Below, piece after piece: positions 7,011 through 28,861 of a DNA stretch of 64,000 nucleotides. The notes under the pieces were generated by a model. It made no database searches, was not told the origin of the DNA, and saw only the letters and a program-made list of their open reading frames with translations. This stretch comes from Chryseobacterium gleum (GTDB lineage: Bacteria; Bacteroidota; Bacteroidia; Flavobacteriales; Schleiferiaceae): NCBI GenBank assembly GCA_945883565.1, contig CAMCXO010000004.1, positions 62,001 to 126,000 of the forward strand, given 5' to 3'. How positions within the stretch are numbered: the stretch's first letter is position 1; each line of letters starts with the position of its first letter. The translations under genes and the position numbers were made by a program.

Positions 7011-7096
7011 CGAGTCGGTCGCTTTATCAAATAATGGCTTTTGGTCGACTGAAGAGTAGTTATAAGTGTCCGAAGTTGCATTTGGATCAATTGGAA
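7011..7096 (-). pseudogene. 86-bp fragment of a TonB-like gene, copy of 17612-17697
   Basis: Differs from 17612-17697 at two positions (G/A and A/C) by direct reading, in the same orientation, and corresponds to the N-terminal 'PNATSDTYNYSSVDQKP' part of the small TonB-domain protein. No other part of that gene is here. The copy ends abruptly at 7096, where the repeat block shared with 25018 begins. This is recombination debris and not a gene. Confidence 0.9.
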
Positions 7097-7172
7097 TGGT
7101 TCACTTTCGTTCAGCTCATTGTATTCATACCTACAGAGATTCTTATCCCCGTTTTTCCTTATCGCTCACCAC
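7097..7172. repeat. 76-bp block shared with 25018-25093
   Basis: Matches 25018-25093 with one visible mismatch (CTACAG against CGACAG), in the same orientation. The left neighbours differ completely (a TonB-gene fragment here, a group II intron remnant there), so the edge TGGTTCAC is a true junction. Both copies lie about 130-170 bp left of a 120-bp palindromic element. No coding function was recognised. Confidence 0.9.
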
Positions 7173-7338
7173 CCTGTGGTTTCCCAACAACGCAGCATGA
7201 TGCGGTTTGCTCACTACGCTTGACCTTCGTAAGCGAGAGACCATTACAATTCCTCCTAAGAGATATTGACTCACATGTACTTTATAGCACTCCCTTTCAT
7301 TGTTCCCTTGGAAAGAGATTCAAGACACACCACGGTTT
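7173..7338. other. Non-coding accessory spacer
   Basis: Between the 76-bp shared block and element A I see no supportable gene. A long plus-strand open frame runs through 7034-7678, but it is built from pieces of other elements and shows no protein family. Confidence 0.6.
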
Positions 7339-7458
7339 GCAGCTACCCGAAGGTGGTGATTTAGAAGCACTTCACTGTCAACCTGCACAAAAGTTTGATA
7401 GGAGCACGCAGCTTCAATTTTGCACGTCACCGCCAATTGAGGCAACACGTTGTTGGCA
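7339..7458 (-). repeat. attC-like palindromic element A (120 bp)
   Basis: Starts GCAGCTACCCGAAGG and ends GTTGGCA on the plus strand. Outer arms pair imperfectly (GCAGCTACCC...GGTGGTGA with TCACCGCC...GGCAGC just outside). Same length and same conserved ends as elements at 16376 and 25226; the first about 85 bp are clearly homologous to the 25226 copy. The variable 7-mer GTTGGCA occupies the position expected of an integron core site. No intact cassette gene adjoins it. Confidence 0.7.
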
Positions 7459-7616
7459 GCTGGTGTTCTGTCTGTCCGTCCTTGTAAACCATTGTATGTG
7501 TAGGGTTTCCGTGTCATTCTCCGTTTACTTTTTTTGTCTTTCTGTGTCGGGTTGTGTGTTGCGTTTTTTATTTTTTTTGAAGGGTCGGGAAATTTTTTTA
7601 AAAACAATTTTGTACT

Positions 7617-10700: not shown

Positions 10701-10871
10701 CAGTTTTTCGTAGGCTTGGTTGTATGCTTGTTCGGGCAAGTTGGGATTGAACTGTATCAGCTTTTCAAAAAATATCTTTTTGAGCACGACTTCTTTTTTG
10801 TTCTGTCTGCCCAATGTGCTGCCTTCGCCAAAGCCTTCTTTGTTGTAAGCCACTAGCGTATCCCAATCCAA
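7701..10871 (-). CDS. hsdR: Type I restriction endonuclease subunit R, orphan, start codon damaged
   Basis: ATP-dependent translocase/nuclease of type I restriction systems. In order: PD-(D/E)xK nuclease 'RPDIIGFINGIPMLFIELKA' (about residues 130-149), Walker A TQGSGKS (291-297), DEAH (394-397), motif III TGTP (421-424), and a helical C-terminus for HsdM contact. Length is normal. The frame begins at a TTG (10871) in mid-domain: the codons upstream still read 'LVEQTAIDLFFNQ', but the ancestral ATG is now ATA (10935-10937) and a TAA lies at 10917-10919. Translation therefore needs the TTG or another non-ATG start, and the gene may be inactive. No hsdM or hsdS is present in the window. A palindromic repeat is inserted in frame at 10583-10624. 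Confidence 0.85.
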   Translation of the reverse strand: MDWDTLVAYNKEGFGEGSTLGRQNKKEVVLKKIFFEKLIQFNPNLPEQAYNQAYEKLIEESITKSLAEINYEKHQLLRNGIPVQLPSPSGEGQGVRIVTLKVFDFDNAGNNNFLAVRQLWIQGKSNRERRPDIIGFINGIPMLFIELKAAHRKLENAYNDNFTDYKDVIPKLFYYNAFVMLSNGIESRIGSVTGKYQHFHEWKRITEEDEGIVALDRIIVGVCEKKRFLDLFENFILFDNSLGKVVKLIARNHQFIGVNKAIENIQHKEQLYKLGKISLEEKQKLGVFWHTQGSGKSYSMVFFCQKIHHKFTGSYTFLIVTDRNELDTQIYGTFSGIGAVPQVKSGSKDSLKANSGKHLKELLSSEHRYLFTLIHKFNFEEEITKRDNIIVISDEAHRTQGGNLAMNLRNALPNASFIGFTGTPLFKDDEITKRIFGDYVSRYDFKRSVDDGATVPLYYENRGEYLGLKNPVINDQIRAVIDAESEDLDSDQRSRVEQLFAREYPILTSKKRLDAIAKDAVWHFCNRGYKGKGMFIALDKLTAVRMYDLITHHWKLTVDQLEKEVSKGKYGDQELLEKSRELQWIKETEICVVVSSEQNEIQKFQKWDLDIEPHREKMNKGDLEARFKDEDDPFRFVIVCAMWITGFDVPTLSTLYIDKPLKSHTLMQAIARANRISEGKNNGLIVDYIETYTALLDALAIYGSGGEDGEGGGGEKPEPPDKPKEDLIKQLEEALEATETFLQDEVNFDLQELIKADGLHKLAAMEKAVNAVYTNDETKRKFQVLAREVFKKYKALQPDKALNQYAPKKNAIDVIYTAIEDNIESADVADIMRKIQNVVDESIEHMVAEPGHNEEKIIDLSGLDFDLLEQYFLKTKNKNAAVQSLKDKVEKQLKRMVERNPLTVDYYKRYQEIIEEYNRGKDEVVIKETFRKLIELVNSYSEEEADTKREGLTDEQKAIFDILRHGKKLEEKEKNEIKKISVALLEELKQEKLKVEQWADKSVTAAAVFNTVSKTLFETLPYPTYQTDDIDLKTNLVYEHLKHQYFRGGMSIYGQY
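10583..10624. repeat. Palindromic interspersed repeat inserted in frame in hsdR
   Basis: CCCCTCTCCA (10596-10605) and TGGAGAGGGG (10608-10617) form a perfect stem with a 2-nt loop, inside a CCTCACCCCCTGCCCC context familiar from dispersed repeats of several bacterial phyla. It encodes 'LPSPSGEGQGVRI' (about residues 85-97) where HsdR proteins normally have a short charged linker before 'VFDFDN'. Confidence 0.8.
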
Positions 10872-10937
10872 CTGATTGAAAAATAAATCAATCGCTGTTT
10901 GTTCAACTAAATTATCTTATGAATATTCCCAAGTTAT
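10834..10937. repeat. hsdR 5'-end direct repeat, copy 1
   Basis: 104 bp matching 12458-12561; the first about 70 bp are nearly identical and the last 30 bp are diverged. It is joined to the intact hsdR body. Its ATG is ATA and the frame carries TAA at 10917-10919. The stop codon of the chaperone gene (10934-10936) overlaps the lost start. Confidence 0.9.
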
Positions 10938-11407
10938 CCATTATTCTTATTATGAAGCAAATTGTTCGGATTGATAATGGGCAACATAAAATTTTGCAAT
11001 GCCGTGCCTTGCAGTCGGGTTAAAAGAATGCCTCTTGATGTAGAATAGGTTACAGTTGAAAGTGCATTTGCCAATCCCGGATGCAGATTCAAACGCTTGT
11101 TTTTTTCGGGTGTGGCAAGCTCTTCTAAATTTTCAATTCGATAAATAAATATCAAATGAAAATTTCCCGTTGCTTCGACTTCGTTTTCGCCTTTGCTATC
11201 GGTTTTTATGCTAACAGTAAAATCGGCCTTAGCCAATTTATCGTCAAGGTTAAAGCCCAATTGTAAGGAGTTGTCTAATTGGTGTCCGACAACTTTGCTA
11301 ATTTCAAAATTTTCAGGTGTGTCCACCTGTCCTTTAATCATTTTGAAATCAATCAAAGTAATCTTTTCCGGGTCGAAAACAATTTTATCCTGCATTGCTC
11401 CATTCAT
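10934..11407 (-). CDS. SecB-like chaperone of a putative toxin-antitoxin-chaperone module
   Basis: 157 residues with the beta-rich layout of SecB-like proteins: 'DNSLQLGFNLDD.....FTVSIKTD', 'FHLIFIYRIENL', and a C-terminal helix ending 'ILLTRLQGTALQNFMLPIIN', comparable with the family's '..G.PP..LPPINF' ending. The assignment rests on this pattern and on gene order (toxin-like, XRE antitoxin, SecB-like), as in known TAC modules where the chaperone protects the antitoxin. The start overlaps the antitoxin 3' end by 23 bp (ATG 11407) or 11 bp (ATG 11395). Remote similarity only; a different beta-sandwich protein is possible. Confidence 0.55.
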   Translation of the reverse strand: MNGAMQDKIVFDPEKITLIDFKMIKGQVDTPENFEISKVVGHQLDNSLQLGFNLDDKLAKADFTVSIKTDSKGENEVEATGNFHLIFIYRIENLEELATPEKNKRLNLHPGLANALSTVTYSTSRGILLTRLQGTALQNFMLPIINPNNLLHNKNNG

Positions 11408-11798
11408 TGTAAGGTTCAGTTACTTCAGCAAATTGCCAAACCTTTCCACTCGTTTTTGTATCGAGATTTGTGTAACTCACATTGGTGTGCACCCTGCACA
11501 TAAAACCGTCTACTACAAATGCTGTCTGTGCTTTTTTCTTCGGCACTTCTAATAATGGCTCACCCAGTTCAGCAGACAATTTTGCCAGCGAACGCAAGGT
11601 GAAATTGTGCTCACCGCTCAGCCATTTGGAAATTTCAGATGGTTTTTTATCCATTTTCTCTGCGAGTTTCTTTTTGCTGATGTTATTTTCAAGCAATAGC
11701 TGATTGATACGAACGACTAGGTCGGCATAAAGCCTCACGAAGATTTCTACATCTTCAGGGGTTTCATCCAATATTTCTTGAAAGATCTTACTTCTCAT
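11385..11798 (-). CDS. XRE-family HTH antitoxin with C-terminal extension
   Basis: 137 residues. A Cro/C1-type helix-turn-helix occupies about residues 29-80 ('LLLENNISKKKLAEKMDKKP', 'SEISKWLSGEHNFTLRSLAKLSAELG'). An extension of about 50 residues rich in aromatic and beta-forming positions follows ('FVVDGFMCRVHTNVSYTN', 'KVWQFAEV'). In TAC modules such an extension is the chaperone-addiction segment that a SecB-like partner binds; that role is inferred. It lies 12 bp downstream of the putative toxin and overlaps the chaperone gene. It probably autoregulates the three-gene operon. Confidence 0.75.
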   Translation of the reverse strand: MRSKIFQEILDETPEDVEIFVRLYADLVVRINQLLLENNISKKKLAEKMDKKPSEISKWLSGEHNFTLRSLAKLSAELGEPLLEVPKKKAQTAFVVDGFMCRVHTNVSYTNLDTKTSGKVWQFAEVTEPYNEWSNAG

Positions 11799-11810
11799 TT
11801 TGTTTGTCTT

Positions 11811-12329
11811 TTATATCATTATGTCATCGCTACCATCGTAATATCGAAATGATCTTTGGTCAGCGGTAATGAAAATGTCTTTGTCTCTCAATGCATCCAA
11901 AATGCGTTTGGCAAAAATGTTGGCTTCTTGAAATGCCATACTTGTTTTTCCTCCTTGTGCTGTATCGGCTGTTTTCTCACCTCCGTTAAACAGCACCACC
12001 AAGGTTTCTGAAATTCGCAAACAATATAATCGAAGCGGAAAATTGCCGAAACGGATGTAAAGGTCCTCCACTTGGTAAGTGCCTGAAGGGGGAAGTGCCT
12101 CTGCATTGTTTTCGAACCTGAAGAAGTCGGGCCGTGCTCCATATTCATCTCCGATGACCACTTCAAGAAAGCTTGCCAGTTCTCGTAAGGGATGTTTGAG
12201 TTGCTCATCGTATATGAATTTTTGAAAAAACTTATCCGTTTCCGAAAGGGCAGCATCTTCCCACCTTACGGTGTAAAAGGTGCAAACCTTCCCTTGGTCG
12301 TCAAATATTTTAAGTTCAAATGTATTCAC
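11811..12329 (-). CDS. Putative toxin, first gene of the TAC-like operon
   Basis: 172-residue protein with no family I can name. The N-terminus 'MNTFELKIFDDQGKVCTFYTVRWED' and the core 'YIRFGNFPLRLYCLRISETLVVLFNGGEKTADTAQ' give alternating strands ending in a 'lR(L)...LVVLFNGG.K' motif reminiscent of HigB/RelE-like and Gp49-like toxins. 'FQEANIFAKRILDAL' follows as a helix. A toxin role is inferred from position directly upstream of an XRE protein and a SecB-like protein. Start ATG 12329 is preceded by an AT-rich stretch, suitable for the operon promoter. Confidence 0.5.
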   Translation of the reverse strand: MNTFELKIFDDQGKVCTFYTVRWEDAALSETDKFFQKFIYDEQLKHPLRELASFLEVVIGDEYGARPDFFRFENNAEALPPSGTYQVEDLYIRFGNFPLRLYCLRISETLVVLFNGGEKTADTAQGGKTSMAFQEANIFAKRILDALRDKDIFITADQRSFRYYDGSDDIMI

Positions 12330-12457
12330 TTATAACTGAATTACGCAAGCCTTTGTTTCACTTTTAAGTTAATTCACGTTTATACTATACCATATTTGTA
12401 TACAAATTAATGTTATAATATTTAATTTTCTTGTCAATCGATGCTCTTTAATAAAAA

Positions 12458-12561
12458 CCTTCTTTGTTGTAAGCCACTAGCGTATCCCAATCCAACTGAT
12501 TGAAAAATAAATCAATCGCTGTTTGTTCAACCAAACAATCTTCTGACTATTCCCAAGTCAT
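12458..12561. repeat. hsdR 5'-end direct repeat, copy 2 (stub)
   Basis: Retains the ancestral hsdR start: on the minus strand ATG (12559-12561) then 'TWE', a TAG at 12547-12549, then 'SEDCLVEQTAIDLFFNQLDW' and on to 'DTLVAYNKEGF'. It then breaks off at about 12458, where the toxin-operon flank begins. It lies directly downstream of the dprA-like stop, showing the original gene order dprA-like to hsdR. Confidence 0.9.
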
Positions 12562-16184: not shown

Positions 16185-16375
16185 ACTAATCCTATTATTA
16201 ATGTATATGTTCTTCTGGACAAAAGGATTCAAAATAAATACGCTCAGCGCCTTGAATGTATTTCATGTGTTGAAAATACTGAATAACAAGGAATTATGCA
16301 ACTTTTCGGCACATATATTATTAACAATCAATTAATTAAAGAAAGCAATAGGGCTTTTAGACAGATTGACGTCAT

Positions 16376-16495
16376 GCAGCTACCCGAAGATGGCGATTTT
16401 CACCACAAATGCTGATGCGGAGAACCACACATTAATTAACCAGAAATGTGTCTGCGGAGCACTGAACCGCCATTTTTGCCAAACCGGTGTTAGCG
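16376..16495 (-). repeat. attC-like palindromic element B (120 bp)
   Basis: Starts GCAGCTACCCGAAGATGGCG and ends GTTAGCG on the plus strand. Inner arms ATGGCG (about 16389) and CGCCAT (about 16469) pair, and CACTGAACCGCCA is identical to element C. It lies directly 3' of the gene 16531-17202. The terminal GTTAGCG is the reverse complement of CGCTAAC at 17211-17217 on the other side of that gene, as required for an integron cassette. Confidence 0.75.
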
Positions 16496-16530
16496 GTTCG
16501 GGCTTTTTTCTCAATCGTCATTTTCCTTAG

Positions 16531-17202
16531 TTATTGAAAGTTTTGTGCTTCTTTTACTGTAAATGCTTTGATGTCATTTGTTGGTGCGAAATATATCTTT
16601 TTTGGTGCAGGTAAAAGTTGCTTTTCTTCTCCCATTGCAAAGCCGAGTTTATAGCCAACATTATCGTCTGTTGTCAAGAATACGTTGTCGTGTTCGGTAT
16701 CGTCTTCTGGAATGAACAACATAACTTTTTTATTTGCTGACTTTTCAGTTATCCAACCTTTAGCTTGTCCAGTCGTTTCCCAAGCTGTAACATCAAATGA
16801 CTTGTCAAAACCCATCGGACTATGAACATAGTTAACGAAGTAACAATAAATTTCAAATTCAATGTCATAGGGAAATGTTATAGCAAATTGTCTTTCGCTT
16901 AACATATAAAGTCGTGGTAGTGCCTGAAAACTTTTCTTGTTATACATATTACAAAAGCCAGTCAAAATACTGTCCATTTCTGACTTGGATATCTTGTCAA
17001 CGATTACAAGTTTGTCATTTGGTTTTTCTTGTGTTGGCAAGTGTTTATTTGATGGTCTGGTTGTGTATCTGTCGGCTTCTGGTTTTTGTCCCGCTGGCAT
17101 AAAAGCCTTAAATGCAAAAATTAAAACTGCCACACCGATTATTATTAAAACCATTATCATATTCTTTTCTTTATTTGGTTGTTCGTTGGATTGTATCGTC
17201 AT
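16531..17202 (-). CDS. Membrane-anchored hypothetical protein (cassette gene)
   Basis: 223 residues, no family recognised. One N-terminal membrane helix (about residues 15-36, 'MIMVLIIIGVAVLIFAFKAF') is followed by a Pro/Lys-rich linker and a soluble domain of mixed alpha/beta character. The orientation is probably a periplasmic domain with an inner-membrane anchor. The start is 8 bp inside the unit boundary at 17211. The whole unit 16489-17217 is bounded by inverted GTTAGCG/CGCTAAC, so I regard it as a mobile gene cassette. Function unknown. Confidence 0.7.
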   Translation of the reverse strand: MTIQSNEQPNKEKNMIMVLIIIGVAVLIFAFKAFMPAGQKPEADRYTTRPSNKHLPTQEKPNDKLVIVDKISKSEMDSILTGFCNMYNKKSFQALPRLYMLSERQFAITFPYDIEFEIYCYFVNYVHSPMGFDKSFDVTAWETTGQAKGWITEKSANKKVMLFIPEDDTEHDNVFLTTDDNVGYKLGFAMGEEKQLLPAPKKIYFAPTNDIKAFTVKEAQNFQ

Positions 17203-17210
17203 AACCGGAC

Positions 17211-17342
17211 CGCTAACGGTTCTTAATAAACATCAGTGCAGCTTCGCCCAACGTAGGTTAAAATTACGGAACATGTTTTTATTGACCGCGAGCACGAAAC
17301 GAAGGAAGGTTAAAGCCGTATTGCGTTTATTTTGTGTTAGGC
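17211..17342 (-). repeat. attC-like site between two cassette genes (132 bp)
   Basis: Read on the minus strand it begins with GCCTAAC (17336-17342), a perfect fit to the attC R'' consensus RYYYAAC, and ends with GTTAGCG (17211-17217). An internal GTTGGGC (17246-17252) fits GTTRRRY. Internal arms TTACGG and CCGTAT pair. Length is within the range of attC sites. It is not a sequence homologue of the 120-bp elements. Confidence 0.6.
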
Positions 17343-17353
17343 ACACGTTTTTT

Positions 17354-17761
17354 TTAATTTTTCACGTCAATCGTAAACGATGTCTTCACTTTTTCTCCTT
17401 TGTGAACAGCGGGTCGCCAGCGAGGCATGTTTTTAATAATTCCAGCTGCTATTTTATTGAAGTCTGCATTCTTACCGTAGGATACTTCTACATTACTAAC
17501 AGTTCCATCTTTCTCAATCACGAAGGTGATGAAAGATTTAAGTCCTTTCTCGAGATCTAGTGAATCAAGCTGTTCCTTGCAGTACTCATAAATCAGTTTT
17601 CTGTTTTCTTCCGAATCGGTCGCTTTATCAAATACTGGCTTTTGGTCGACTGAAGAGTAGTTATAAGTGTCCGAAGTTGCATTTGGATCAATTGGAACAA
17701 CCTGGGAGTTCGCTGAAAATGTTATGAATATGATTGTCAATATTGTCAGTAAGTATTTCAT
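17354..17761 (-). CDS. Small secreted TonB C-terminal-domain protein
   Basis: 135 residues. Signal peptide 'MKYLLTILTIIFITFSANSQ', then a short linker and a TonB C-terminal-like domain: 'GLKSFITFVIEKDGTVSNVE' and 'IIKNMPRWRPAVHKGEKVKT', the core of Bacteroidota 'energy transducer TonB' proteins. It lacks the N-terminal membrane helix plus proline-rich span that true TonB needs to reach ExbBD, so an energy-transducing role is doubtful. It lies between two attC-like intervals; an 86-bp piece is duplicated at 7011. Confidence 0.8.
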   Translation of the reverse strand: MKYLLTILTIIFITFSANSQVVPIDPNATSDTYNYSSVDQKPVFDKATDSEENRKLIYEYCKEQLDSLDLEKGLKSFITFVIEKDGTVSNVEVSYGKNADFNKIAAGIIKNMPRWRPAVHKGEKVKTSFTIDVKN

Positions 17762-17782: not shown

Positions 17783-17920
17783 TGCCAACGGTTTGGCACT
17801 TCTTTTCTTCGTCCATTTGTTGGTCAGTCGTGCGTTGGGACAGACACACTTTTTGCCAAGTTTTGGCTTGCGTGTCGGCTTGATCAACTTGGCAATGTGT
17901 GTGGCTGTGAGGGGTTGGGT
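17783..17920 (-). repeat. attC-like site at the 3' end of the jet operon (138 bp)
   Basis: On the minus strand it starts ACCCAAC (17914-17920, fits RYYYAAC) overlapping the jetD stop and ends GTTGGCA (17783-17789). A strong stem lies inside: ACACACTTTTTGCCAAG on the plus strand pairs with CTTGGCAATGTGTGT, extended by ACAG/CTGT. It could double as a jet transcription terminator. Confidence 0.55.
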
Positions 17921-19068
17921 TATTCATTGTCAAAGTATTTGTTTACATAGTCTAATGGGATTTTTTCTTGTTCAAATCTCCAGTTGTTTGTTTTCAAAAT
18001 CTCGTAAAGCTCTTGTTCTTCGTCTGACAAGTTAAGTTTTACGGAAATATTTGTTGGCGTTCCATTATCGTCTTCAAAAAAAGTGTCAAAGGCTTTCTTG
18101 TCCATTAAAACACTTCTTGTATGCGGAAAGTAAGTCCTGAATTGTGAAAGAATTTCAAAGCCTTGAACGTCTATGTCTCCCCAATAAAGTAATTTAAGAT
18201 TGTCAAGCCAACGTACATTTTTAAGATTGAAAACACTAAATCCACTACCAAAAATTGCAATGGTGTCATTCATTTTTGGAAGTGTCAAAGTGGTGTAAAG
18301 TGTTGTCTTGTTCTCTACGACCAATACTTTTTTAATTGATAAGTTAAGCTTTTCAAATTGGCTAACTGGAACAGCAATATCATCAATTCCCGAAAAAAAT
18401 CTTTCCGATATTGTTTTGTCAAGAACCTTAAACCGAATTTGAGGTTCAGCATATTTTAAATTAAACCTATTTTCAAATTCTTTTTCTTCACTTTTTACGT
18501 GTTCCGAGATTAGAACATCTAGCAGTTCCCTGATAATGCTTTTGTTTCTCTCGATAAATTTTGTGTGAACTTTTATCGGCAATTCTCTAATATATAAATT
18601 TGGTTTTGGATTTTGTTTAAAGTATTGACACACTTGCAAAATGTTTTTCCATTCGATCCCATTCTCAATAATCTTTCTAGGACTTTTAATTATCCAATCT
18701 TTGAGTTCAGGGAATTCCAGAAGGATTATCTCAACATTTGATTTGAAAGAATCTACTTCATTCTCTTTACCTAAAAATTTCAAAAAATCATTTTCATTAT
18801 CAAAGTAAATTGAAATTGGCAAATCTTGAGTTCCTAAATGCTTGGTCTTTATTTTTTGAAATTCCAATGTATAGCCAAAACCCTTTTTCTCCTTTGAATG
18901 GCTATGAATTTGTTGAATTTCTCTTTCAAATTCCGACAGTGAAGATTTGGTGTACGACTTATCGCCACGAATAACCAATTTCTCAAAAGGTCGCTGTTCA
19001 ACCAAAGATTGAAGAAATGAAATGTACTTTCTTTCTGTTTTATCCTTTATTTCCTTTGGTGTAATCAT
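17920..19068 (-). CDS. jetD: Wadjet nuclease subunit JetD
   Basis: Toprim/TopoVI-A-like nuclease of the Wadjet system, which cleaves small circular plasmid DNA after JetABC loop extrusion. The N-domain (DUF3322) shows 'LYIRELPIKVHTKFIERNK'; the C-domain (DUF2220) shows 'LLYWGDIDVQGFEILSQF', the acidic Toprim-like DxD site, then 'FPHTRSVLMDKKAF'. ATG 19068 gives a 4-bp ATGA overlap with jetC and reads 'MITPKEI'; a longer start at 19080 is a TTG and is less likely. Last gene of the jetABCD operon. Confidence 0.92.
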   Translation of the reverse strand: MITPKEIKDKTERKYISFLQSLVEQRPFEKLVIRGDKSYTKSSLSEFEREIQQIHSHSKEKKGFGYTLEFQKIKTKHLGTQDLPISIYFDNENDFLKFLGKENEVDSFKSNVEIILLEFPELKDWIIKSPRKIIENGIEWKNILQVCQYFKQNPKPNLYIRELPIKVHTKFIERNKSIIRELLDVLISEHVKSEEKEFENRFNLKYAEPQIRFKVLDKTISERFFSGIDDIAVPVSQFEKLNLSIKKVLVVENKTTLYTTLTLPKMNDTIAIFGSGFSVFNLKNVRWLDNLKLLYWGDIDVQGFEILSQFRTYFPHTRSVLMDKKAFDTFFEDDNGTPTNISVKLNLSDEEQELYEILKTNNWRFEQEKIPLDYVNKYFDNE

Positions 19069-22000
19069 TGAGTCATACAATTCGCTTTTTCTTCTTTGAA
19101 TTGTTCAATTGGCATATCATAGAGCCAAGATTGTTTTTCGTCTTTTATTTCAACATAATGAACATAGGAAATATTATCTTCAACGATATGTAAGTCATTC
19201 AAGGGGGTTACAACAAGTAGTTGAAGGTGCAGCTGCTTGCAAAGTGAAAGTAAATATTTGGCTTTCTCTTCATCTTGTGCCTTGAAGGCTTCATCAATAG
19301 CGACAAACCGAAAAGATTTAGACTCTAAACCCTGATTATATTTAGTTAAGCCAAATTGATAAGCTATGGCAGAACCTAATATTGTGTATGTCAACTGTGC
19401 TTTTTGTCCGCCAGATAATGCACCCATTCCTTCATAAGTTTTGAATTTGGCATTTGTTTCCTTGTAAAATTCTTCGGCTTTGTAACTAAACCAAGAACGA
19501 ACGTCCATTACTTTTATACGCCATTCTATTTTGTCTAATTTCTCAATAAATGGTTGAACATGATTATTAAAATGATGCTTTCTGCCTTCATTGTTTTTCT
19601 CCATTTGGTAAACATTTGGTACGGCTTCTTCTAAAAGCTTTCTAAATTCCTTTACTTCATCATTAATCTTGTTAGGAGCAACAAGTTGGATATAGGTTTC
19701 GGGTTTACTTTTGAAGTCAATCTCTTTTAAAGATTCATTCAAATGTTTGATGTTTTCTTTGATTGAATCTGACCAGTTTTCAAAGAACATTCTGAAATCA
19801 CCAACTTTGTTGGTAATTGTTTCTTGCAAATAATCGTTGAATTTCTTTTCAAACTTTGGAAGGTTATCATTCTCCAACTTAGCAAGGAAGTTTTGATATT
19901 CACTGATTAACTCTAAATGTGTTGAATCGGGTAGAGAATTAACATCAGAACGCCAATCCTTGAATTTGCTTAATATAGCTTCTGAAGGCTGTTTAAAATC
20001 GTTTATCTTGTTGATTACTTCTCTTTCTTTCCTTTGCTTCTGTTCTTCAAGTTCTCTTGTTTGTTTTGAATTTTCCATTTGGAATCTCTCACGACTTGAT
20101 TCAAAGGTTGCGTATTCAATATTCAGCAAATCGGAATGTTGTTTTTCAAACATTGAAACATCAACAATTCCCAATGGCTCATAAATAGATTTGTTACTCC
20201 TGATTGATTTTTCAATAGAACCAACTTCATTTTTCTTGGTAAATATTTCTTGCTCCTTATCGGAAATTTGAACTTTTGAAAGTTGGTTTAAAGAGTCTTG
20301 AACCTTTTTTAAATCCTCTTGTAATTGCTTTAGACGATTGTTCGTTTTTTCTAATTTTTCTTTCTGTTCTGTTTTTTCTTGTATATCGTTCGCATACGAT
20401 TGCCAGTTTATGTCATCATATTTTTCAAACTTTGAAAACAGGTTATGGCATTCATCCTTGAATATGCCTAAGTTTTTTATCTCGATATTTTTGTTTGCAA
20501 TCGCTTTCTTCTTTTCTGTTTGTTGATTTTGAAGATTGATTAATTCTTTCTTTAGAGAGGAGAGTTTTTCTTTGTTATCCCATCCCAATACAAAATTTTC
20601 CTTTCGAGTTATATGAGGCCGGTCGTCTTTTTCGTGTTTGCCCCTTTTGAATTTTATCAATCCATTTTGAGTAATTGCCATTTCGTGGAATTGCTCAAAT
20701 TCCGAAAGATTCTCTACGCAAACAAAATCAAATTGAGATTCCAAATAGTTCTCAATCCAATCGCAATATTGTGTTTTTGGCTTAATTTCAATTTTATTGA
20801 TTAATGACTTTTCGTTAAGTATTTTGTTCTTGAAATTTTTAAGATAGTCTTGGTCTTCATATTTGTCGTAACGAATTCTACCTTTCAAATTATTGCTGTT
20901 CACATATTGATTCACTGATGAATAGTACTTTTGTGGAACAATCAATCGTAATGCAAAATTGTGAAGTACTTTCTCAATTGATGATTCCCACTTCATTTCA
21001 TCATCCTTTACTTTAATCAATTCTCCAATAAATGGGATTTCTTCTCGATTTGCCCCAATGTGTGAAATGATTTCATCTCGTATTTCGGCTTCACGCCCTG
21101 CTATATTATTTTTGTTTTCTTGAAGAGTTTTTATAGTTTTTACTAAATCTTCGGTGTCTTGTTTTAGTTTATCTTCTTCATTCTTAAATGCACGGAGATT
21201 TTCAATTTCTATATCAATATTATTTTGCGTGATTTGTTTTAACTTCTTCGCACTTTCTCTGTTCGTGTTAAAAGTTTCTTCACTTGGGTTGGTGATGAAG
21301 TCGATGTTTTGGGCAATTTTATTGTAATCATCAAGTTTTCGACTTCTGTTGTCTTTAAGGGTTTGAAGATTTTTAATATCCTTCTCTAAATCTTTGATTT
21401 TACTTCCTACTTCATCTTTTTCAATCGAAATCGAGATAGTTCGTTCTTCTTGTTTTAGTTTTTCCTCCTTATCACGTAAATCAGTTAACTCATCATTTAA
21501 TCTTTGCAACTCTTCTTTACATTTCTCCAGTTCTTTTTCACCCAACTCAACACCTTTAGTTGCAAACCAATAAACTGCCGTTTCTTTCGACTTTTCCAAT
21601 CGAAATAAATCCGCTTTGATATTGGTCAGTTCTATTGCAATCTCATTAATTGGCCTTAGTTGTTCAATTTGTTCTTTAGCCTTTTCAATGTTGGTTTTAG
21701 CATCCATTAAAGTCAAGAAACTTTCTTTAAGTTGAATGAATTCTGCTTCCGCATCTTGTTCTTCCAACATATTGGTTCTTATGAAATCATCTAAGTCTTC
21801 CAATACTTTTACCCCAACAACTTGATTGAACAAAGTCAACGCTTTTGTTGAACGCATACCAAATAAGTCCGCCATTCTTTCTGCATAAGCAGTAGGTCCA
21901 TCTATGAACTCAATTTTCTTCTTCGTGACATTCGAGTTGTACTTTTTATCTAAAACCTTTTTCCAATTTCCTTTTGAATCGAATTGATCAAAATCAGATT

Positions 22001-22469
22001 CTACTTCCAGAGGAACGTGAGCAATTCCGAATTGCCGCCTTAATTCATTATTCGAAAACCAACGTACTTGAAAAAGTGTAATTTGTTTTTGGTCTGCATT
22101 GGAGAATGAAGCAAGAATTACTGAATAGGTGTTTGTATCACGCAATTTTTGTGTAGAAGTAGAAGTTTTTCCTTCTTCTTGAATGTTTCCGTAATGCCCC
22201 AACACATAGGTTTCTTCGGTACGGTCGCCTTTCTTCTCAACACCCGAAGATTGATTGTAAAAACGGTCTTTCTTTGCAGGAACAATTAGAGTAAGCAATG
22301 CATCAATGTATGTGCTCTTTCCAGATGCGTTTGCACCAGTCAAAAGTGAATTATTCCCATTCGGATTTATTCTAAAAACCTTTTCATTAAATGTTCCCCA
22401 GTTGTAAACTTCCATATATTGAAGTCTGAACCCCGCTTTGTCGGAACTTGTACTAAACAGACTCAACAT
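19065..22469 (-). CDS. jetC: Wadjet SMC-like ATPase JetC
   Basis: 1134 residues; MukB/SbcC-like motor. Walker A 'GANASGKST' (about 45-53) follows the strand 'YNWGTFNEKVFRI'. Two long coiled-coil stretches (about 270-480 and 650-900) flank a hinge region with 'IPFIGELIKVKDDEMKWESS'. The C-terminal ATPase half carries the signature 'LSGGQKAQL' and Walker B 'FVAIDEAF'. ATP hydrolysis by JetC dimers drives DNA loop extrusion that measures plasmid topology. It overlaps jetB by 17 bp and jetD by 4 bp. Confidence 0.93.
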   Translation of the reverse strand: MLSLFSTSSDKAGFRLQYMEVYNWGTFNEKVFRINPNGNNSLLTGANASGKSTYIDALLTLIVPAKKDRFYNQSSGVEKKGDRTEETYVLGHYGNIQEEGKTSTSTQKLRDTNTYSVILASFSNADQKQITLFQVRWFSNNELRRQFGIAHVPLEVESDFDQFDSKGNWKKVLDKKYNSNVTKKKIEFIDGPTAYAERMADLFGMRSTKALTLFNQVVGVKVLEDLDDFIRTNMLEEQDAEAEFIQLKESFLTLMDAKTNIEKAKEQIEQLRPINEIAIELTNIKADLFRLEKSKETAVYWFATKGVELGEKELEKCKEELQRLNDELTDLRDKEEKLKQEERTISISIEKDEVGSKIKDLEKDIKNLQTLKDNRSRKLDDYNKIAQNIDFITNPSEETFNTNRESAKKLKQITQNNIDIEIENLRAFKNEEDKLKQDTEDLVKTIKTLQENKNNIAGREAEIRDEIISHIGANREEIPFIGELIKVKDDEMKWESSIEKVLHNFALRLIVPQKYYSSVNQYVNSNNLKGRIRYDKYEDQDYLKNFKNKILNEKSLINKIEIKPKTQYCDWIENYLESQFDFVCVENLSEFEQFHEMAITQNGLIKFKRGKHEKDDRPHITRKENFVLGWDNKEKLSSLKKELINLQNQQTEKKKAIANKNIEIKNLGIFKDECHNLFSKFEKYDDINWQSYANDIQEKTEQKEKLEKTNNRLKQLQEDLKKVQDSLNQLSKVQISDKEQEIFTKKNEVGSIEKSIRSNKSIYEPLGIVDVSMFEKQHSDLLNIEYATFESSRERFQMENSKQTRELEEQKQRKEREVINKINDFKQPSEAILSKFKDWRSDVNSLPDSTHLELISEYQNFLAKLENDNLPKFEKKFNDYLQETITNKVGDFRMFFENWSDSIKENIKHLNESLKEIDFKSKPETYIQLVAPNKINDEVKEFRKLLEEAVPNVYQMEKNNEGRKHHFNNHVQPFIEKLDKIEWRIKVMDVRSWFSYKAEEFYKETNAKFKTYEGMGALSGGQKAQLTYTILGSAIAYQFGLTKYNQGLESKSFRFVAIDEAFKAQDEEKAKYLLSLCKQLHLQLLVVTPLNDLHIVEDNISYVHYVEIKDEKQSWLYDMPIEQFKEEKANCMTQ

Positions 22470-23031
22470 AATCTTTTAACTTATTTTCAAATTCTTGTAA
22501 AATATCAAGAGTGATTTTTTCTTTGATAATTCTATGTATTTGGTATTTCGTTTCATTGTCTTTCTTGTTTATTTCTTTTAAGTAGCCCAAATCAACAGCC
22601 GCATTGATATACTTATCAAGTTCTTTTATGAATTTGACTTTGTTATATTTTTCTGGAAGAAATAATTCTAACTCCTCGTTTATTTCTGTATTTGTGATAA
22701 ATTTTTCGGTTGCCAATTGTGTAGGATTGCTGTCAAAATCTTCTAGGCTTTGTCTTAGAACAACAAGCACAATAGAGGTTTCAAAGCCGATTTGTCGTCT
22801 TTGTACTAATCCGAGAGTGTTACCTTCACTATCTTCAAGTTGCTTTACAAAAGCAAATCCTTCATCTTTTTTAACGATTAACTCTAAACCAATTTTACTA
22901 ATGTAGTCCTGGATTTCAGTTTGATAATTTATTACATCATCCCATACATTGGAGTTTCGTTCTACGGTTGCTTTTAATAACCTTACAATGACTTTGCTAT
23001 AAGGAGTAATATGCTTTTCTAAACTGCTCAT
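22453..23031 (-). CDS. jetB: Wadjet subunit JetB (DUF4194)
   Basis: 192 residues; MukE-like winged-helix subunit (DUF4194). 'VIVRLLKATVERNSNVWDDV' and 'QDYISKIGLELIVKKDEGFAF' and 'LGLVQRRQIGFETSIVLVVL' match the family pattern. JetB bridges the kleisin JetA and DNA. It overlaps jetA by 4 bp (ATGA) and jetC by 17 bp, showing translational coupling. Confidence 0.92.
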   Translation of the reverse strand: MSSLEKHITPYSKVIVRLLKATVERNSNVWDDVINYQTEIQDYISKIGLELIVKKDEGFAFVKQLEDSEGNTLGLVQRRQIGFETSIVLVVLRQSLEDFDSNPTQLATEKFITNTEINEELELFLPEKYNKVKFIKELDKYINAAVDLGYLKEINKKDNETKYQIHRIIKEKITLDILQEFENKLKDYVESV

Positions 23032-24488
23032 TTGGTCAAAATAATTTCAGGGATTTTAATTTGTTTGCGGTTGTCCGCATCAAAAATGATACTTTGGGTT
23101 TTATCAGGATTGATAATGTGTTTGAATTCCTTCACAATGCCTATGTAACCGAACAACTCAGGCAACCCTTTTTCAAGACCACCATAATTTTCGACAATTT
23201 CTAAAAGTGTGGACTGCGACTTTTCTTTAAGTACATCTTTCACCCTTTTTCTCAACAATTCTTTATCAATATTAGACTGTGAAAACAGTCGTCCTAATTG
23301 ATTAGATGATGTAATGTCTTCATTAGCAATTTTGGGTCTATTGGTGTATGTAACTTCTTCAGATTGCTCTTTCGTGAGTTTGCGTTCAAATGGAATATTT
23401 ATATCTGTTGCTGTTTCTAATTCAAATGAAATATCAGGCTTGTTCTTGGATTTACTGATTTCTACAAGTTGCTTCTTAATGTCTTGAATTATTTTTTTCG
23501 TGGCTTCTGATTTAGAACTTTCATTCTCACGAATTATGCGGCTTAGTTTTTCAGCCATTTTATCATTGGCTTTGTAAACTTTTTGTCCTGAACTATGGAG
23601 ATGTTTTTTCATTCCTATCAGGAATGTATCCCTTACTGAGATTGATTTTTCTTCTAAGGTTGTGTATAAATCTTTGGTCAGGCTTTCCCATTTGTGCTGT
23701 AAATCTGGATTCAATATGAATGACCAGAAGGCGTAAAAGCTTTTTCCTTGTTGGCTTTCTTTTAATGATTCAAGTGCATCAAAAGTAAATTCCAGTATGT
23801 CACTCTTGGATAAGCTTCCATCAGCGTGTTTTTGATAAATCCCTTTTGTAATTTCTTTAAAGTTGTCTTCAACTTCTTTAAAGTCGGATAATAATTCTTT
23901 AGCGGATTGATTGAGTTGATTAAAACGGGGTACGATTTCAAATTCTTCAAATACTTTTACGTCTTCTCCGATTTTTATTCGTTGAATTTGTTGTTCAATT
24001 TCTAATTTTTTCTCTTCCAACAACTCTATACGCTTTTCGGCATCTTCATTAGTGAACTCAACCAACTCTTTTAATTGATTCAGTATGTTGTTGAATTTGG
24101 ATTCAGTACCAACAAACTCTTCCTTTTTTAAACTTGCCAACCAATCTATGGTTTTACTTGAATGTGAAGATAGTTCATAAAAAATTTCACCTTGTTCATC
24201 AGGATAATTCGTCAAAAAGCCATTGTTAGTCCAGTTTTGAATATACTTTTTGGCTTTATCTTCATAGGTGTCAAAAAAATTAATTTCATTTTCTTCATCG
24301 ATTTCAATTCTCTGTCCTTCTAAAAAGTCCGCTAATTGAGAATGAATATTCTCAGATGAAATGGAGTTTTGTTTATTAACGAAAGTTCTTACTAGAAATT
24401 CAATAATCATTTCTCTGTTTCGTAAACGTAACAAACCAACACTTGGAGAAGTGTTTAGCGTGTTTAGTATTTGAGAAATGTCTGCCAT
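23028..24488 (-). CDS. jetA: Wadjet kleisin subunit JetA (DUF3375)
   Basis: 486 residues; MukF-like kleisin, DUF3375, which defines type I Wadjet. N-terminal winged-helix 'SVGLLRLRNREMIIEFLVR' and 'LADFLEGQRIEI', central helical and coiled region, C-terminal 'GGLEKGLPELFGYIGIVKEF' domain. First gene of the operon. The upstream region (24489-24600) contains a strong hairpin and no clear TAnnTTTG promoter. Confidence 0.92.
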   Translation of the reverse strand: MADISQILNTLNTSPSVGLLRLRNREMIIEFLVRTFVNKQNSISSENIHSQLADFLEGQRIEIDEENEINFFDTYEDKAKKYIQNWTNNGFLTNYPDEQGEIFYELSSHSSKTIDWLASLKKEEFVGTESKFNNILNQLKELVEFTNEDAEKRIELLEEKKLEIEQQIQRIKIGEDVKVFEEFEIVPRFNQLNQSAKELLSDFKEVEDNFKEITKGIYQKHADGSLSKSDILEFTFDALESLKESQQGKSFYAFWSFILNPDLQHKWESLTKDLYTTLEEKSISVRDTFLIGMKKHLHSSGQKVYKANDKMAEKLSRIIRENESSKSEATKKIIQDIKKQLVEISKSKNKPDISFELETATDINIPFERKLTKEQSEEVTYTNRPKIANEDITSSNQLGRLFSQSNIDKELLRKRVKDVLKEKSQSTLLEIVENYGGLEKGLPELFGYIGIVKEFKHIINPDKTQSIIFDADNRKQIKIPEIILTK

Positions 24489-24499
24489 TTATAATTACT

Positions 24500-24590
24500 T
24501 TCTGTGCGTTGGAAAAAATTCAGGCTCTTTTGCTTGCGAAGCGGTCGCCCGTGCGTTGGGGCAAGCAAATGCCTGAATGTGCGGTTGGCA
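24500..24590. repeat. Hairpin with cassette-type core upstream of jetA
   Basis: CAGGC(TC)TTTTGCTTGC pairs with GCAAGCAAATGCCTG. The element ends in GTTGGCA (24584-24590), the same 7-mer as in element A and at the 5' side of the TonB-like gene. GTGCGTTGG occurs twice, and also in the hairpin at 17.8 kb. It may be an attC-like site or a structured leader. Confidence 0.45.
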
Positions 24591-24639: not shown

Positions 24640-25017
24640 GGTGGTAATCGGGTCATACAGGGGAATCTCACCACTACCTTCCCACAGAACCGTGCGTGAA
24701 AGTCTCCCTTCACACGGCTCTTCATGTTGTTAAGTCACTAAAGATATTCAGCTTCACGGACATACCAATAACCAAAGTGCAAATTAATTGGGTCGTTCCC
24801 TGTATTTCGTGCGCAGGTATTGTAAACCCGCTTTCTTATACAGCCCCTTTTCCCATTTTACCCATTTCAGTAGTCGTAAGTTCAGTTGCCACCATACTGC
24901 CAACTTAACCCCGGATGCCATGTGTTCAGTAATCAGGCTCCTAACACACTCTGTCATAGGCACAAACGTAACCACCTACTTTCGACATCGCTTTTTGCGC
25001 TTACGAGGCTTCTTCAT
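24640..25017 (-). mobile_element. 3' remnant of a group II intron (RT C-terminus, domains V and VI)
   Basis: On the minus strand, an open stretch ends 'LLKWVKWEKGLYKKAGLQYL' and then 'RTKYRERPN', typical of the maturase/C-terminal end of group II reverse transcriptases. A TAA replaces the expected Leu before 'FALWLLV'. Downstream, about 24686-24722 folds as domain V: AGCCGTGTGAA...GAGA tetraloop...TTCACGCACGGTT with the AGC triad. A domain VI-like stem follows (GGGAAGG...), ending near TATGACCCG. The 5' part of the intron and the reverse transcriptase active site are missing. Confidence 0.75.
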
Positions 25018-25093
25018 TGGTTCACTTTCGTTCAGCTCATTGTATTCATACCGACAGAGATTCTTATCCCCGTTTTTCCTTATCGCTCACCAC
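25018..25093. repeat. 76-bp block shared with 7097-7172
   Basis: One mismatch against the copy at 7097. Here it abuts the truncated 5' side of the group II intron remnant and lies 132 bp left of element C. The intervening 25094-25225 holds no recognisable gene. Confidence 0.9.
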
Positions 25094-25225
25094 AAGTTTG
25101 TTTCCATATCAAGCAGCATAAGGTGGTTTGGCAACTACTCCTGGAAGTCGTCGCCGAGAGCCCTACTCTCATCTGTTCTAAAGCACCAACAATCCGCTGA
25201 TTGTTGTTCAAGCCACACACGGTTC

Positions 25226-25345
25226 GCAGCTACCCGAAGGTGGCGATTTCGGAGCACTTCACTGTCAACCAAGCAGAAACTTTGATAGAAGCACAAAGCT
25301 TGATTTAACCACTGAACCGCCACTTTTGGGTAGGTGCTGTTATGG
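25226..25345 (-). repeat. attC-like palindromic element C (120 bp)
   Basis: Starts GCAGCTACCCGAAGGTGGCG and ends GTTATGG. GCAGCTACCC-GAAG-GTGGCGAT pairs with ACCGCCAC-TTTT-GGGTA-GGTGCTG. It lies directly 3' of the gene at 25359-25865. The terminal GTTATGGCTC (25339-25348) is the perfect reverse complement of GAGCCATAAC at 26589-26598, on the far side of the two-gene unit. Confidence 0.8.
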
Positions 25346-25358
25346 CTCGTTTTTCTTG

Positions 25359-25865
25359 TCATTCGTCTGTCATTAGTTGGTTTAAGTATTCTCCAAATTC
25401 ACCTTTTATCTTTTTTGTCAATATCAATTCTCGGTTAAGAGTATCTTTTAAATAATAGTCTTTTAAAGTTTCTATTGATTGCTCGTGTCCCTTTATTGCA
25501 CCCATAATTAAATATTCGATTGCTAAATTTCTTGTTTTTAAATCTATCCTGTCAAGCAGTTTGTCTGGCGAATAAACTCCATTGTAATCTAAAATAGCCA
25601 TATAACAGTCAAAATATGCTTGTGTGTAGTCATACTTATTTGCCATTTTTAGAGCAATTGGAAAAAAGTCTCCGCTCGGATAATCTAAATAAGCAATTGA
25701 TAAAGTTTCATAGGCATTTGTGTCGCCTTTTTCTAAAGCAAGTTCTTTCAGTTCGCTTATTGGTCTGCCTGGATCATTCATAGACCTTTCTGTATTGTCG
25801 CTTCTTTTTGAATTACAAGAAGAAACAACAAAAAGCAAGAATACAATTATGTGATTTATCTGCAT
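25359..25865 (-). CDS. Hypothetical lipoprotein (cassette gene)
   Basis: 168 residues. Lipoprotein signal 'IIVFLLFVVSSC' with lipobox cysteine at about residue 17, then a helical domain with 'ALEKGDTNAYETLSIAYLDY' and 'LIMGAIKGHEQSIETLKDYY', which hints at short TPR/Sel1-like helical hairpins but does not reach a clear family match. The 5' end overlaps the upstream membrane-protein gene by 10 bp, so the two are co-expressed. Second gene of the unit bounded by GTTATGG/CCATAAC. Confidence 0.75.
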   Translation of the reverse strand: MQINHIIVFLLFVVSSCNSKRSDNTERSMNDPGRPISELKELALEKGDTNAYETLSIAYLDYPSGDFFPIALKMANKYDYTQAYFDCYMAILDYNGVYSPDKLLDRIDLKTRNLAIEYLIMGAIKGHEQSIETLKDYYLKDTLNRELILTKKIKGEFGEYLNQLMTDE

Positions 25866-26548
25866 CGTTTCATTGTTTCAAATTTTATACTGTCAACTTG
25901 TTTGTTGTAATTAAAGTAGTAATATTTTTCTAAACTGTCTTTTGAAGATACTATCATTTGTAAAAAATCATAGTCTCTAAGTCCCTCAGGCGGAAATTGT
26001 GCAGCCATACCCATACCTTCAAACCAAACGCCTATTTCAGAACTGATCGTTACTTTTTTAGCATCGTCCCAAAACATATAGTTTGCTCGTTCAGGAATTT
26101 TAATTCTGTCTCCCGTATTTGTTACATAAAAATATTGGTGATTTATGTAGCCGCTTTCTATTTTTCCCTTATATAATAAAATTCCGCTTTCAGGAAAGTT
26201 TAGTTGTTCTCTCCTGTCCTTTTTGATAATTTCTTGTCCACAGTCGATTTGTTGAACTACAATTGCCTTTCCCTTAAAATTATCAGGAAAGTTAAAGTCA
26301 AGTTTTTGAGCGGTCGCAGTCCCTATAGTGCCTATCAGATACATAAAAACATAAAAAGAAGGATACCAAAATATTACTGGTAAAACTGTCCAAAGTGTTT
26401 TGTTTAAAATCTTTGTCTTACTAAACCATAAAATTCCAACTCCGACAAGAAAAACAGGAACAGTAAAAATTAGCAAATACGGATTGAGTGAAACCAAAAA
26501 GGTTAGGATAATTATTCTCAGTCCTATTATGTATTTTTTATCTTTCAA
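25856..26548 (-). CDS. Hypothetical membrane protein (cassette gene)
   Basis: 230 residues. Two or three N-terminal membrane helices (about residues 8-42 and 52-75) are followed by a soluble beta-rich domain ('FPDNFKGKAIVVQQIDCGQE', 'GILLYKGKIESGYINHQYFY', 'YMFWDDAKKVTISSEIGVWF'). I do not recognise the family with certainty; it resembles small Bacteroidota proteins whose soluble part contains a 'F.IP..f.G...V' strand. First gene of the two-gene cassette-like unit; the boundary 7-mer lies 40 bp upstream of the start. Confidence 0.7.
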   Translation of the reverse strand: MKDKKYIIGLRIIILTFLVSLNPYLLIFTVPVFLVGVGILWFSKTKILNKTLWTVLPVIFWYPSFYVFMYLIGTIGTATAQKLDFNFPDNFKGKAIVVQQIDCGQEIIKKDRREQLNFPESGILLYKGKIESGYINHQYFYVTNTGDRIKIPERANYMFWDDAKKVTISSEIGVWFEGMGMAAQFPPEGLRDYDFLQMIVSSKDSLEKYYYFNYNKQVDSIKFETMKRCR

Positions 26549-26635
26549 TTCAGTGTCGTTTTGTCGTTTCGTGTCGGTCTTTTAAAATGAGCCATAACTT
26601 ATATATATACGAAAAAATACTGTACTTTCTCTAGC

Positions 26636-26834
26636 TTATTGTGGTTTGATGATTTGCGCAGCATATTCATTATTAGCGGTTTTATTGGCTTTGGTAAAAT
26701 TAGCTGCATTTTGTGTCAATTGATCTAAGGTGCTGTTTATTTTATTTACTTTGACTTGGGTTAAGTGGGTATAAAGGGTAATGGTCTTGATGCTTTGGTG
26801 GCCTTAAAATCTGATGAATCCGGTTGCGAACCTT
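26636..26834 (-). pseudogene. C-terminal remnant of a tyrosine recombinase at the head of the cassette array
   Basis: On the minus strand, 'GHQSIKTITLYTHLTQVKVN' followed by 'KINSTLDQLTQNA' and a stop at 26636-26638 matches the end of phage-type integrases (the LGHxSIKTT...YTH box with the catalytic Tyr). Just upstream the frame is broken: an extra A gives TAA where 'IL-GHQ' should join 'RNRIHQ'. Arg, Lys and the first His boxes are absent. It sits about 40 bp from the outer boundary of the first cassette-like unit, on the same strand as the cassettes. Confidence 0.65.
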
Positions 26835-27360
26835 CACATTTTGAAAGGCCCTATAACACATGTGCGAAGCATTCCAATAGACTCCTTTTGCGTTTTTAAG
26901 TTCTTGTACCCATTTTTGTCGGTAATGAAGTTAAAAAACCCGGTACCGACCTTCTGCGAAGATATCAGGGCTGCGCTGGAAAAGCCTTCGGCAAATTGAC
27001 GAAAACCAGCGTCAATAAAGGGTTTTAATACAAGCGTGATTTTGACAAAATTGGTGTTCTTTGATGGATTTTTTTGATTTGGCATTAAAACCGCCCTGCT
27101 CCTTGCTAGTTGTCTGCAATTGCCCAGAAGATTTTGCCTAATGGTTGTTGGTTTTTTTTGTGTCATTGAAAAAAGTTATCATTCTACGAATTGGCGGGGT
27201 TATTTATAATGTAATTGTAAATGGTTTGATATGATTTATAATTAGGAATGATGTGAAATCGGGATTGCCATTGAAAATCATGCCCTAGATGGTTGGCATG
27301 TTTTGTTACGTCAGATTTATAGGAATATATATTGGATGAAATGGGATTTTTGCCAATGTT
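26835..27360. other. Region without a supportable gene
   Basis: A minus-strand open frame (26834-27166, 110 codons) shows no recognisable family and lies against the recombinase remnant; it may be a decayed gene. The rest is AT-rich. No RNA gene or promoter was recognised. Confidence 0.5.
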
Positions 27361-27467: not shown

Positions 27468-27504
27468 GTTATCGGTGTGGGGCGTTGAACATTCGAAGGT
27501 TGTA

Positions 27505-28197
27505 GATAATTTGAAAACTCCGGTAAAAAAATTGAAAATGCCTATTAATGAATGCTCGAAGCCAAATAATGGCTGTTTGATGCCGGCGCGGGAAGGTTTG
27601 AAGTCCATTGATAATTTGAAAACGCTGGTAAGAAAATTGAAAATGCCTATTAATGAATGCTCGAAGCCAAACAATGGCTGTTCGATGCCGGCGCGGGAAG
27701 GTTTGAAGTTTATTGATAATTTGAAAACTCCGGTAAAAAAATTGAAAATGCCTATTAATGAATGCTCGAAGCCAAACAATGGCTGTTTGATGCCGGCGCG
27801 GGAGGGTTTGAAGTCTGTCGAAAATTTGAAAACGCTGGTAAAAAAATTGAAAATGCCCATAAATGAATGCTCGAAGCCAAATAATGGGTGTTGGATGCCG
27901 GCGTGGGAAGGTTTGATGACTGTTGATAATTTGAAAACGCCGGTAAAAAAATTGAAAATGCCTATTAACGAATGCTCGAAGCCAAATAATGGCTGTTCGA
28001 TGCCAGTGCGGGAAGGTTTGAAGTCTATTTATAATTTGAAAACTCCGGTAAAAAAATTGAAAATGCCTATTAATGAATGCTCGAAGCCAAACAATGACTG
28101 TTCGATGCCGGTGCGGGAAGGTTTGAAGTCTGTTGAAAATTTGGGAACGTTGGTAAAAAAATTGAAGAAGCCGACTGATTAATGCTCAAAGCGGGCG
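27505..28197. repeat. 105-bp tandem repeat (5 x 21-bp higher-order units)
   Basis: Six complete 105-bp copies begin at 27505, 27610, 27715, 27820, 27925 and 28030, with a diverged partial seventh from 28135. Each contains five 21-bp subunits with a TTGAA/TCGAAG core (TTGAAAACTCC, TTGAAAATGCC, TCGAAGCC, TTGATGCC, TTGAAGTC). Both strands stay open for long stretches because the period is a multiple of three. The plus frame reads heptads such as 'NLKTPVK', 'KLKMPIN', 'EGLKSID'. Confidence 0.9.
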
Positions 28198-28659: not shown

Positions 28660-28861
28660 CAGGGATTGCAGCGGAAAGCCCGCAGCCGCCATTACCATAG
28701 CCTTTTGAATTAATCATGCCCATCCTTAAATCCGGTAAATCATGGTTCAGACAATGGCGGCGAGGACTTGGAGCGCAAAGCCCGGCCCGCGTGGGGCAGG
28801 AAAATGTCTTGGCTATGCTAAAACCTTCTGCCCCGCTCGGGGGCGCCTAAATGGTTTGTAT

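Follow-up and report, generated by a model that had tools for sequence, protein, structure and literature searches.

A gene unit with complementary ends in Chryseobacterium gleum, read as a decayed cassette of a Bacteroidota-type integron

The stretch of 64,000 nucleotides analysed here (the window) contains a gene enclosed by two complementary 7-mers, and this arrangement raises the question of whether the unit is an integron cassette and, if so, which recombinase handles it. Our answer, held with high though not full confidence, is that positions 16489-17217 are one cassette of a decayed Bacteroidota-type integron, with its own integrase family and its own attC-like sites.

The unit and its boundaries

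The letters were checked and both 7-mers lie where the earlier note had placed them, GTTAGCG at 16489-16495 and CGCTAAC at 17211-17217, with a single open reading frame between them whose start adjoins one core and whose stop is some 36 nt away from the second. Read along the gene strand, the unit is AACCGTTAGCGGTCCGG-gene-GCCCGAACCGCTAACACCGG; it starts at AACC/GTTAGCGGTCCGG and ends at GCCCGAACCGCTAAC/ACCGG (here and below a slash marks the boundary). The two ends are complementary in the manner of integron cassettes, as had been claimed. The gene product, P0001, matched no Pfam family, and its sequence suggests a small membrane-anchored protein (Table 1).

Taken alone, the complementarity of the ends is suggestive only, and we use it as a lead. 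GTTAGCG is not rare, with 4 occurrences in the window against 4.7 expected, while shuffled sequence gave two 60-nt flanks, 700 nt apart, with a complementarity of 12/13 or more in 1 of 400 draws. A plain scan for GTTRRRY gave no signal (161 matches, 141 expected). The unit was accepted as a real cassette because of two other observations, namely the homology boundary with Kaistella at C/GTT and the match at 16359-16500 to R1, a covariance model made from other genomes.

In Kaistella chaponensis (L021) a relative of P0001 with 80% amino acid identity is located inside a cassette array. DNA homology between this locus and the window is limited to 17218-16460; it sets in at C/GTTAGCGG and breaks off within a hairpin region. 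Each unit of the Kaistella array has its own complementary pair (GTTAGCGG and CCGCTAAC, GTTATCTGC and GCAGATAAC, GTTAGGCATA and TATGCCTAAC), with hairpins between the units. Relatives of P0001 are present in many Bacteroidota, and those of Adhaeribacter, Lentimicrobiaceae, Niabella and Flavobacterium are also followed by attC-like sites. Among these loci homology can start exactly at GTT, as in AAC/GTTAGCAGCAAT (L024) and GGTA/GTTACCAGCAAT (L025). Since homology breaks at GTT and the relatives stand in arrays, the P0001 gene is, judging from these alignments, a unit that travels; the different neighbours that the earlier note proposed to look for were found in the Kaistella array and in the loci of the other relatives. 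No relative of P0001 was found on plasmids. The locus of a near-identical strain (L020) was rejected as evidence of movement, it being the same locus.

It is highly improbable that the inverted repeat arose by chance around an ordinary gene of the chromosome. Such a repeat would agree with the expected frequency of GTTAGCG and with the absence of folding energy in the site 16359-16500, but it is contradicted by the homology boundary at the core, by the R1 match (E 5e-6, with a model that holds no window sequence) and by the presence of the gene in different arrays elsewhere.

The folding energy expected of an attC site, which the earlier note had made a test of its reading, is absent from the cassette's own site at 16359-16500 (z 0.02, against z -3.0 for the sister site at 25218-25342). 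Its pairing is lost, and its R'' core reads GACGTCA in place of ACGTTA. Because this site no longer folds, we judge the cassette to be a decayed relic, most likely fixed and immobile now. On the upstream side, the score of a possible decayed site at 17215-17346 is near background for our own scanner, and R1 gave no match there when the window was scanned. A first guess at this upstream site, 17240-17348 (GCCTAAC...GTTGGGC), was dropped as it showed no folding, and so was a longer one ending at 17211 with a score near background.

Table 1. Features of the array remnants in the window.
Feature	Coordinates	Strand	Evidence or remark
C-terminal integrase remnant (pseudogene)	26639..26803	-	HMM of A4, E 1.5e-5
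attI-like end CGTATATATATAA/GTTATGGC	26591..26611	-	end type as after intact integrases; cassette start 26598
Second cassette, two genes (25359-25865, 25856-26548)	25339..26598	-	ends GTTATGGCTCATTTT and AAAACGAGCCATAAC
Well-kept attC-like site of second cassette	25210..25350	-	R1 85.5 bits, E 2e-19; folds, z -3.0
Group II intron, no intact maturase gene	24647..25220	-	Rfam RF01999 and RF00029; ends approximate
TonB_C-domain gene	17354..17761	-	possibly a neighbouring cassette; uncertain
Possible decayed attC-like site upstream of cassette	17215..17346	-	own scanner score 10.0; uncertain
Cassette	16489..17217	-	start core GTTAGCGG to R' CCGCTAAC; L021 homology ends at start core
Cassette gene P0001, 223 aa	16531..17202	-	apparent single N-terminal membrane segment
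Degenerate attC-like site of cassette	16359..16500	-	R1 33.2 bits, E 5e-6
Third attC-like site	7322..7463	-	R1 50.7 bits, E 1.7e-10; adjoins group II intron piece

The site family and its integrase

R1 was made from 14 sites of six loci, window sequence excluded. Its architecture is YAAC, 1 nt, a 10-bp stem, an internal loop, a 6-bp stem, a variable loop, the return strands, a 5-nt spacer (often AAAAC) and GTTR. Core and stem are conserved across the family; compensatory changes are seen in 15 of 20 pairs, a count that is biased as the sites were picked for complementarity. Rfam has no family for sites of this type. Besides the three matches in the window (Table 1), which belong to at least 12 in this genome at E<=1e-4, R1 sites occur in 277 of 395 genomes of the class (70%; 152 of 197 genera) and in 112 of 198 genomes of the phylum sample. 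In 30 loci with 107 sites, every locus had all its sites on one strand.

The ends of single cassettes were then compared over 69 cassettes (median cassette length 920 nt). Of the 7 nt just outside the starting GTTR, 5.1 on average agree with R' at the end of the cassette, against 2.1/7 for R' and R'' flanking one hairpin and 2.2/7 for random pairs; end matching played no part in choosing the sites. Within one cassette the matching of both ends spans about 10 nt, and it is the signature of units that were once circles joined at GTT. The repeats lie directly past stop codons and form hairpins, as would terminators or REP-like elements that separate genes by chance and do not recombine. That explanation is scarcely credible: it is contradicted by the match between start and end of one unit where the sides of one hairpin do not match, and it predicts neither the end matching, nor an attI with an integrase, nor homology breaks at GTT.

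A search of the class genomes showed that recombinases scoring below the TIGR02249 cut-off stand next to the arrays, on their upstream side and on their strand. In 30 integrase loci with about 1.5 kb of flank, 14/14 sites were downstream of the integrase on its strand. These array integrases are 347-371 aa long in the five that were scanned, and longer elsewhere. An additional N-terminal domain, for which there is no Pfam family, is followed in them by a SAM-like domain and a catalytic domain, and they are without the IntI-specific insertion. Their TIGR02249 scores are 206-211 bits for a cut-off of 265, and their best NCBIfam model is NF040815 (213-233 bits, cut-off 220). The predicted structure (pLDDT 77, pTM 0.51) was closest in a fold search to XerA and the integron integrase 2a3v. 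A quick tree built from 57 proteins placed IntI in one group and Xer in another, and the array integrases stood with IntI against Xer with full support; they need two changes on this tree, so that a single origin is not supported for them.

The family is present in 200 of 395 class genomes (E<=1e-60), 186 of which have sites; integrase without sites was seen in 14 genomes and sites without a strong integrase match in 91. Co-occurrence is strong (Fisher p 1.5e-25, with related genomes treated as independent), and 86 of the 88 strong integrase cases have sites. Two congeners carry an intact 389-aa integrase, on contigs that end shortly past the gene.

The genome studied here has sites while only XerC and XerD are intact in it, and one could suppose that these housekeeping enzymes recombine the sites and that the linked integrase is incidental. 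We give this almost no credence, given that a dedicated integrase is strongly linked to the sites in a constant position and that this genome keeps fragments of it; loss accounts for the absence of an intact copy. The recombinases on contigs C38 and C43, our first integrase candidates, turned out to be the housekeeping XerD and XerC.

It is also unlikely, if less so, that IntI serves these sites as ordinary attC sites and that the locus is an integrase-less cluster in an unusual phylum. Common YAAC/GTTR cores, the hairpin, the matching ends and the grouping of the array integrases with IntI would fit, and R1 sites and IntI occur together in some genomes of other classes. Against it, R1 found none in 18 canonical IntI loci, a class 1 integron included, and IntI above cut-off occurs in 1/395 class genomes, far from the number with sites; in the phylum sample it occurs in 46 of 148 genomes, and in our own genome none is above cut-off. 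In one genome that carries both integrases (G399), it is the new-type integrase, on contig C1, and not IntI that is followed by R1 sites, four in number; 17.6 kb at IntI on contig C5 contain none. An IntI integrase with its specific insertion, by which membership of the canonical integrons is judged, is not what the array integrases are. Other marks of integrons are found in the family, which has cored attC sites with a folded stem, mobile cassettes and an attI beside the integrase. Of the integron reading in the earlier note the cassette thus stands, and the canonical IntI integron does not, since R1 has no match at canonical IntI loci and the insertion is absent.

In relatives with an intact integrase, the stretch that separates its stop from the first cassette has a conserved end with the pattern TATAAACAA/GTTA. 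Two Chryseobacterium plasmids have integrase and attI in common, with 90% identity over 3.2 kb, and diverge exactly at the GTT of this end (GACATATAAACAA/GTTGGGAAAAAT in one, GACATATAAACAA/GTTAGCGGTAAG in the other). Between two genomes of different families (G097 and G077) one cassette with its site is 96.5% identical, and the sequence past the core differs.

Taking the relatives as a guide, recombination at GTTR would be the work of a tyrosine recombinase that forms a family of its own and is about 350-420 aa long. Its targets would be the attI-like site shortly past its gene and attC-like hairpins some 125 nt in length. A cassette in circular form would integrate with its GTTR side at the start and R' plus hairpin at the end, and both ends of one cassette would therefore be complementary over about 10 nt. 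The anatomy, the boundaries, the distribution, the linkage with the integrase and the occurrence of exact cassette units in different contexts are seen directly in the sequences; from these we infer the recombination reaction, its exact cut, the use of a folded single strand and the loss of mobility here. In this genome the integrase survives in fragments and a group II intron occupies the core of the best site, and the cassette 16489-17217, with the pairing of its site gone, is most likely fixed.

The rest of the window

The minus strand carries, in order, the integrase remnant, the attI-like end, a two-gene cassette, its site with an intron, a Wadjet operon, a TonB_C gene, the cassette 16489-17217 and its degenerate site. 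R1 sites with a relic A4-type integrase upstream on the same strand, the mark of the Bacteroidota type, are thus found in the window. The earlier note was right that no intact integrase is near, but had missed the remnant and attI-like end at 26803-26591. The match of the remnant is short (29 aa). A second remnant on contig C6 (L049 4025-4414) is 81% identical over 391 bp to window 26580-26955; both its N-terminal domain (E 8e-12) and its C-terminus match, and an attI-like end is present. The genome in this way has two instances of one internally deleted remnant with an attI-like end, as if the deleted form itself had been copied. The ends of the second cassette, 25339-26598, are complementary over at least 10 nt, and the intron interrupts the R'' core of its site.

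At the third site the group II intron piece gives an Rfam match at 7129-7255. At 24647-25220 and 7129-7340 group II introns or pieces of them lie on attC-like cores, in cassette orientation, and an intact maturase gene is missing from both. Next to the third site and the intron piece there, 86 bp at 7011-7096 nearly repeat a part of the TonB_C gene region; they are 97.7% identical to the copy in L020.

The Wadjet operon (17920-24488, minus strand) looks complete, with DUF3375, DUF4194/MksE, an SbcC-like ATPase and JetD, and lies between decayed cassette sites. After it there is a hairpin at 17840-17908 (23-nt arms, 83% complementary, z about -3.2 to -3.6), which folds well but was not counted as a site, since it misfits the model; another in a similar style seems to precede the operon near 24520-24580. 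Two other repeat regions were noted. Direct repeats of about 107 bp (10831-12561) flank a 1.5-kb stretch (10938-12453) with small ORFs that is absent from the near-identical strain L020, and 27480-28660 has tandem-like repeats, in units of about 120 bp (27480-28180) and of 21 bp with GTTGAAC (28198-28650).

Reach of the system and comparison with known systems

In pHH1107 (L171 4998-7120) and in Acinetobacter plasmids (L172 = p34AB), tet(X3) stands directly after a gene named 'tpnF', whose 221-aa product shares 52% identity with the C-terminal portion of the array integrases. Ahead of tet(X3) there is an attI-like end, GGCGTATAGCCACTT/GTTATGTGCC, and past it an apparent truncated attC-like site, CTACTAACAAGCAGTTTTGCAATAGTGGGGC. 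The tet(X3) unit has been treated as carried by ISCR2 (PMC7722449). A Bacteroidota integron origin of the tpnF-tet(X3) unit is possible; tet(X3) as one intact cassette is unsupported, because there is no match between its two ends and R1 reports no site at the unit.

An integron-like capture system thus appears widespread in Bacteroidota. IntegronFinder 2.0 notes earlier finds of In0 only in Bacteroidetes and adds one integron of Salinibacter ruber (PMC9024848), and a review counts the phylum among integron carriers (PMC8618304). Surveys thus treat integrons as nearly absent from Bacteroidetes, where they list integrases lacking cassettes and the one Salinibacter, whereas we see sites in 70% of the sampled class genomes and the dedicated integrase in half. 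The novelty of the system is provisional: no description of these arrays was found in open-access papers, and preprints and most subscription papers were outside the search. On balance we favour, with some reserve, the idea that Bacteroidota use a second integron class, separate from IntI, with an integrase that lacks the insertion and has its own N-terminal domain. It would be present, or have left traces, in most class genomes, would move cassettes between families, and would have given rise to the integrase fragment and the sites on either side of tet(X3) in Acinetobacter plasmids. If this is true, cassette capture would be a main path by which genes flow in a phylum that is dominant in soil, water and gut. 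In a published classification of the tyrosine recombinases the IntI insertion is described as essential for integron function and not fully conserved in an integron-like subgroup (PMC8138268); the present system makes it testable how a recombinase without this insertion recognises its sites.

By comparison with CALIN elements, which are clusters of at least two attC sites less than 4 kb apart that lack an integrase, the genome likewise has sites and cassettes and misses an intact integrase. The window sites, however, at 7.4, 16.4 and 25.3 kb, are about 9 kb apart, beyond the 4-kb limit for these elements (PMC9668308), they are of another type, and a remnant of the integrase is present. Like group IIC-attC introns, the intron 24647-25220 sits at the R'' core past an attC-like hairpin; its orientation is that of the cassettes, whereas those introns are typically opposite (PMC7923331). 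The XerA-like recombinases of NF040815 ('site-specific tyrosine recombinase/integron integrase') give the best NCBIfam scores, under a generic family name, but the array integrases carry the N-terminal extension and are linked to cassette arrays. The closest likeness is to the IntI integron (TIGR02249), with which the arrays share single-gene cassettes on one strand, GTTR/YAAC cores, imperfect hairpin sites, matching cassette ends, an attI beside the integrase and a related tyrosine recombinase. They differ from it in an integrase that has the extra N-terminal domain and lacks the IntI-specific insertion, that is upstream of its cassettes and co-oriented with them, in sites whose model misses the canonical IntI loci, and in an end matching that here reaches about 10 nt.
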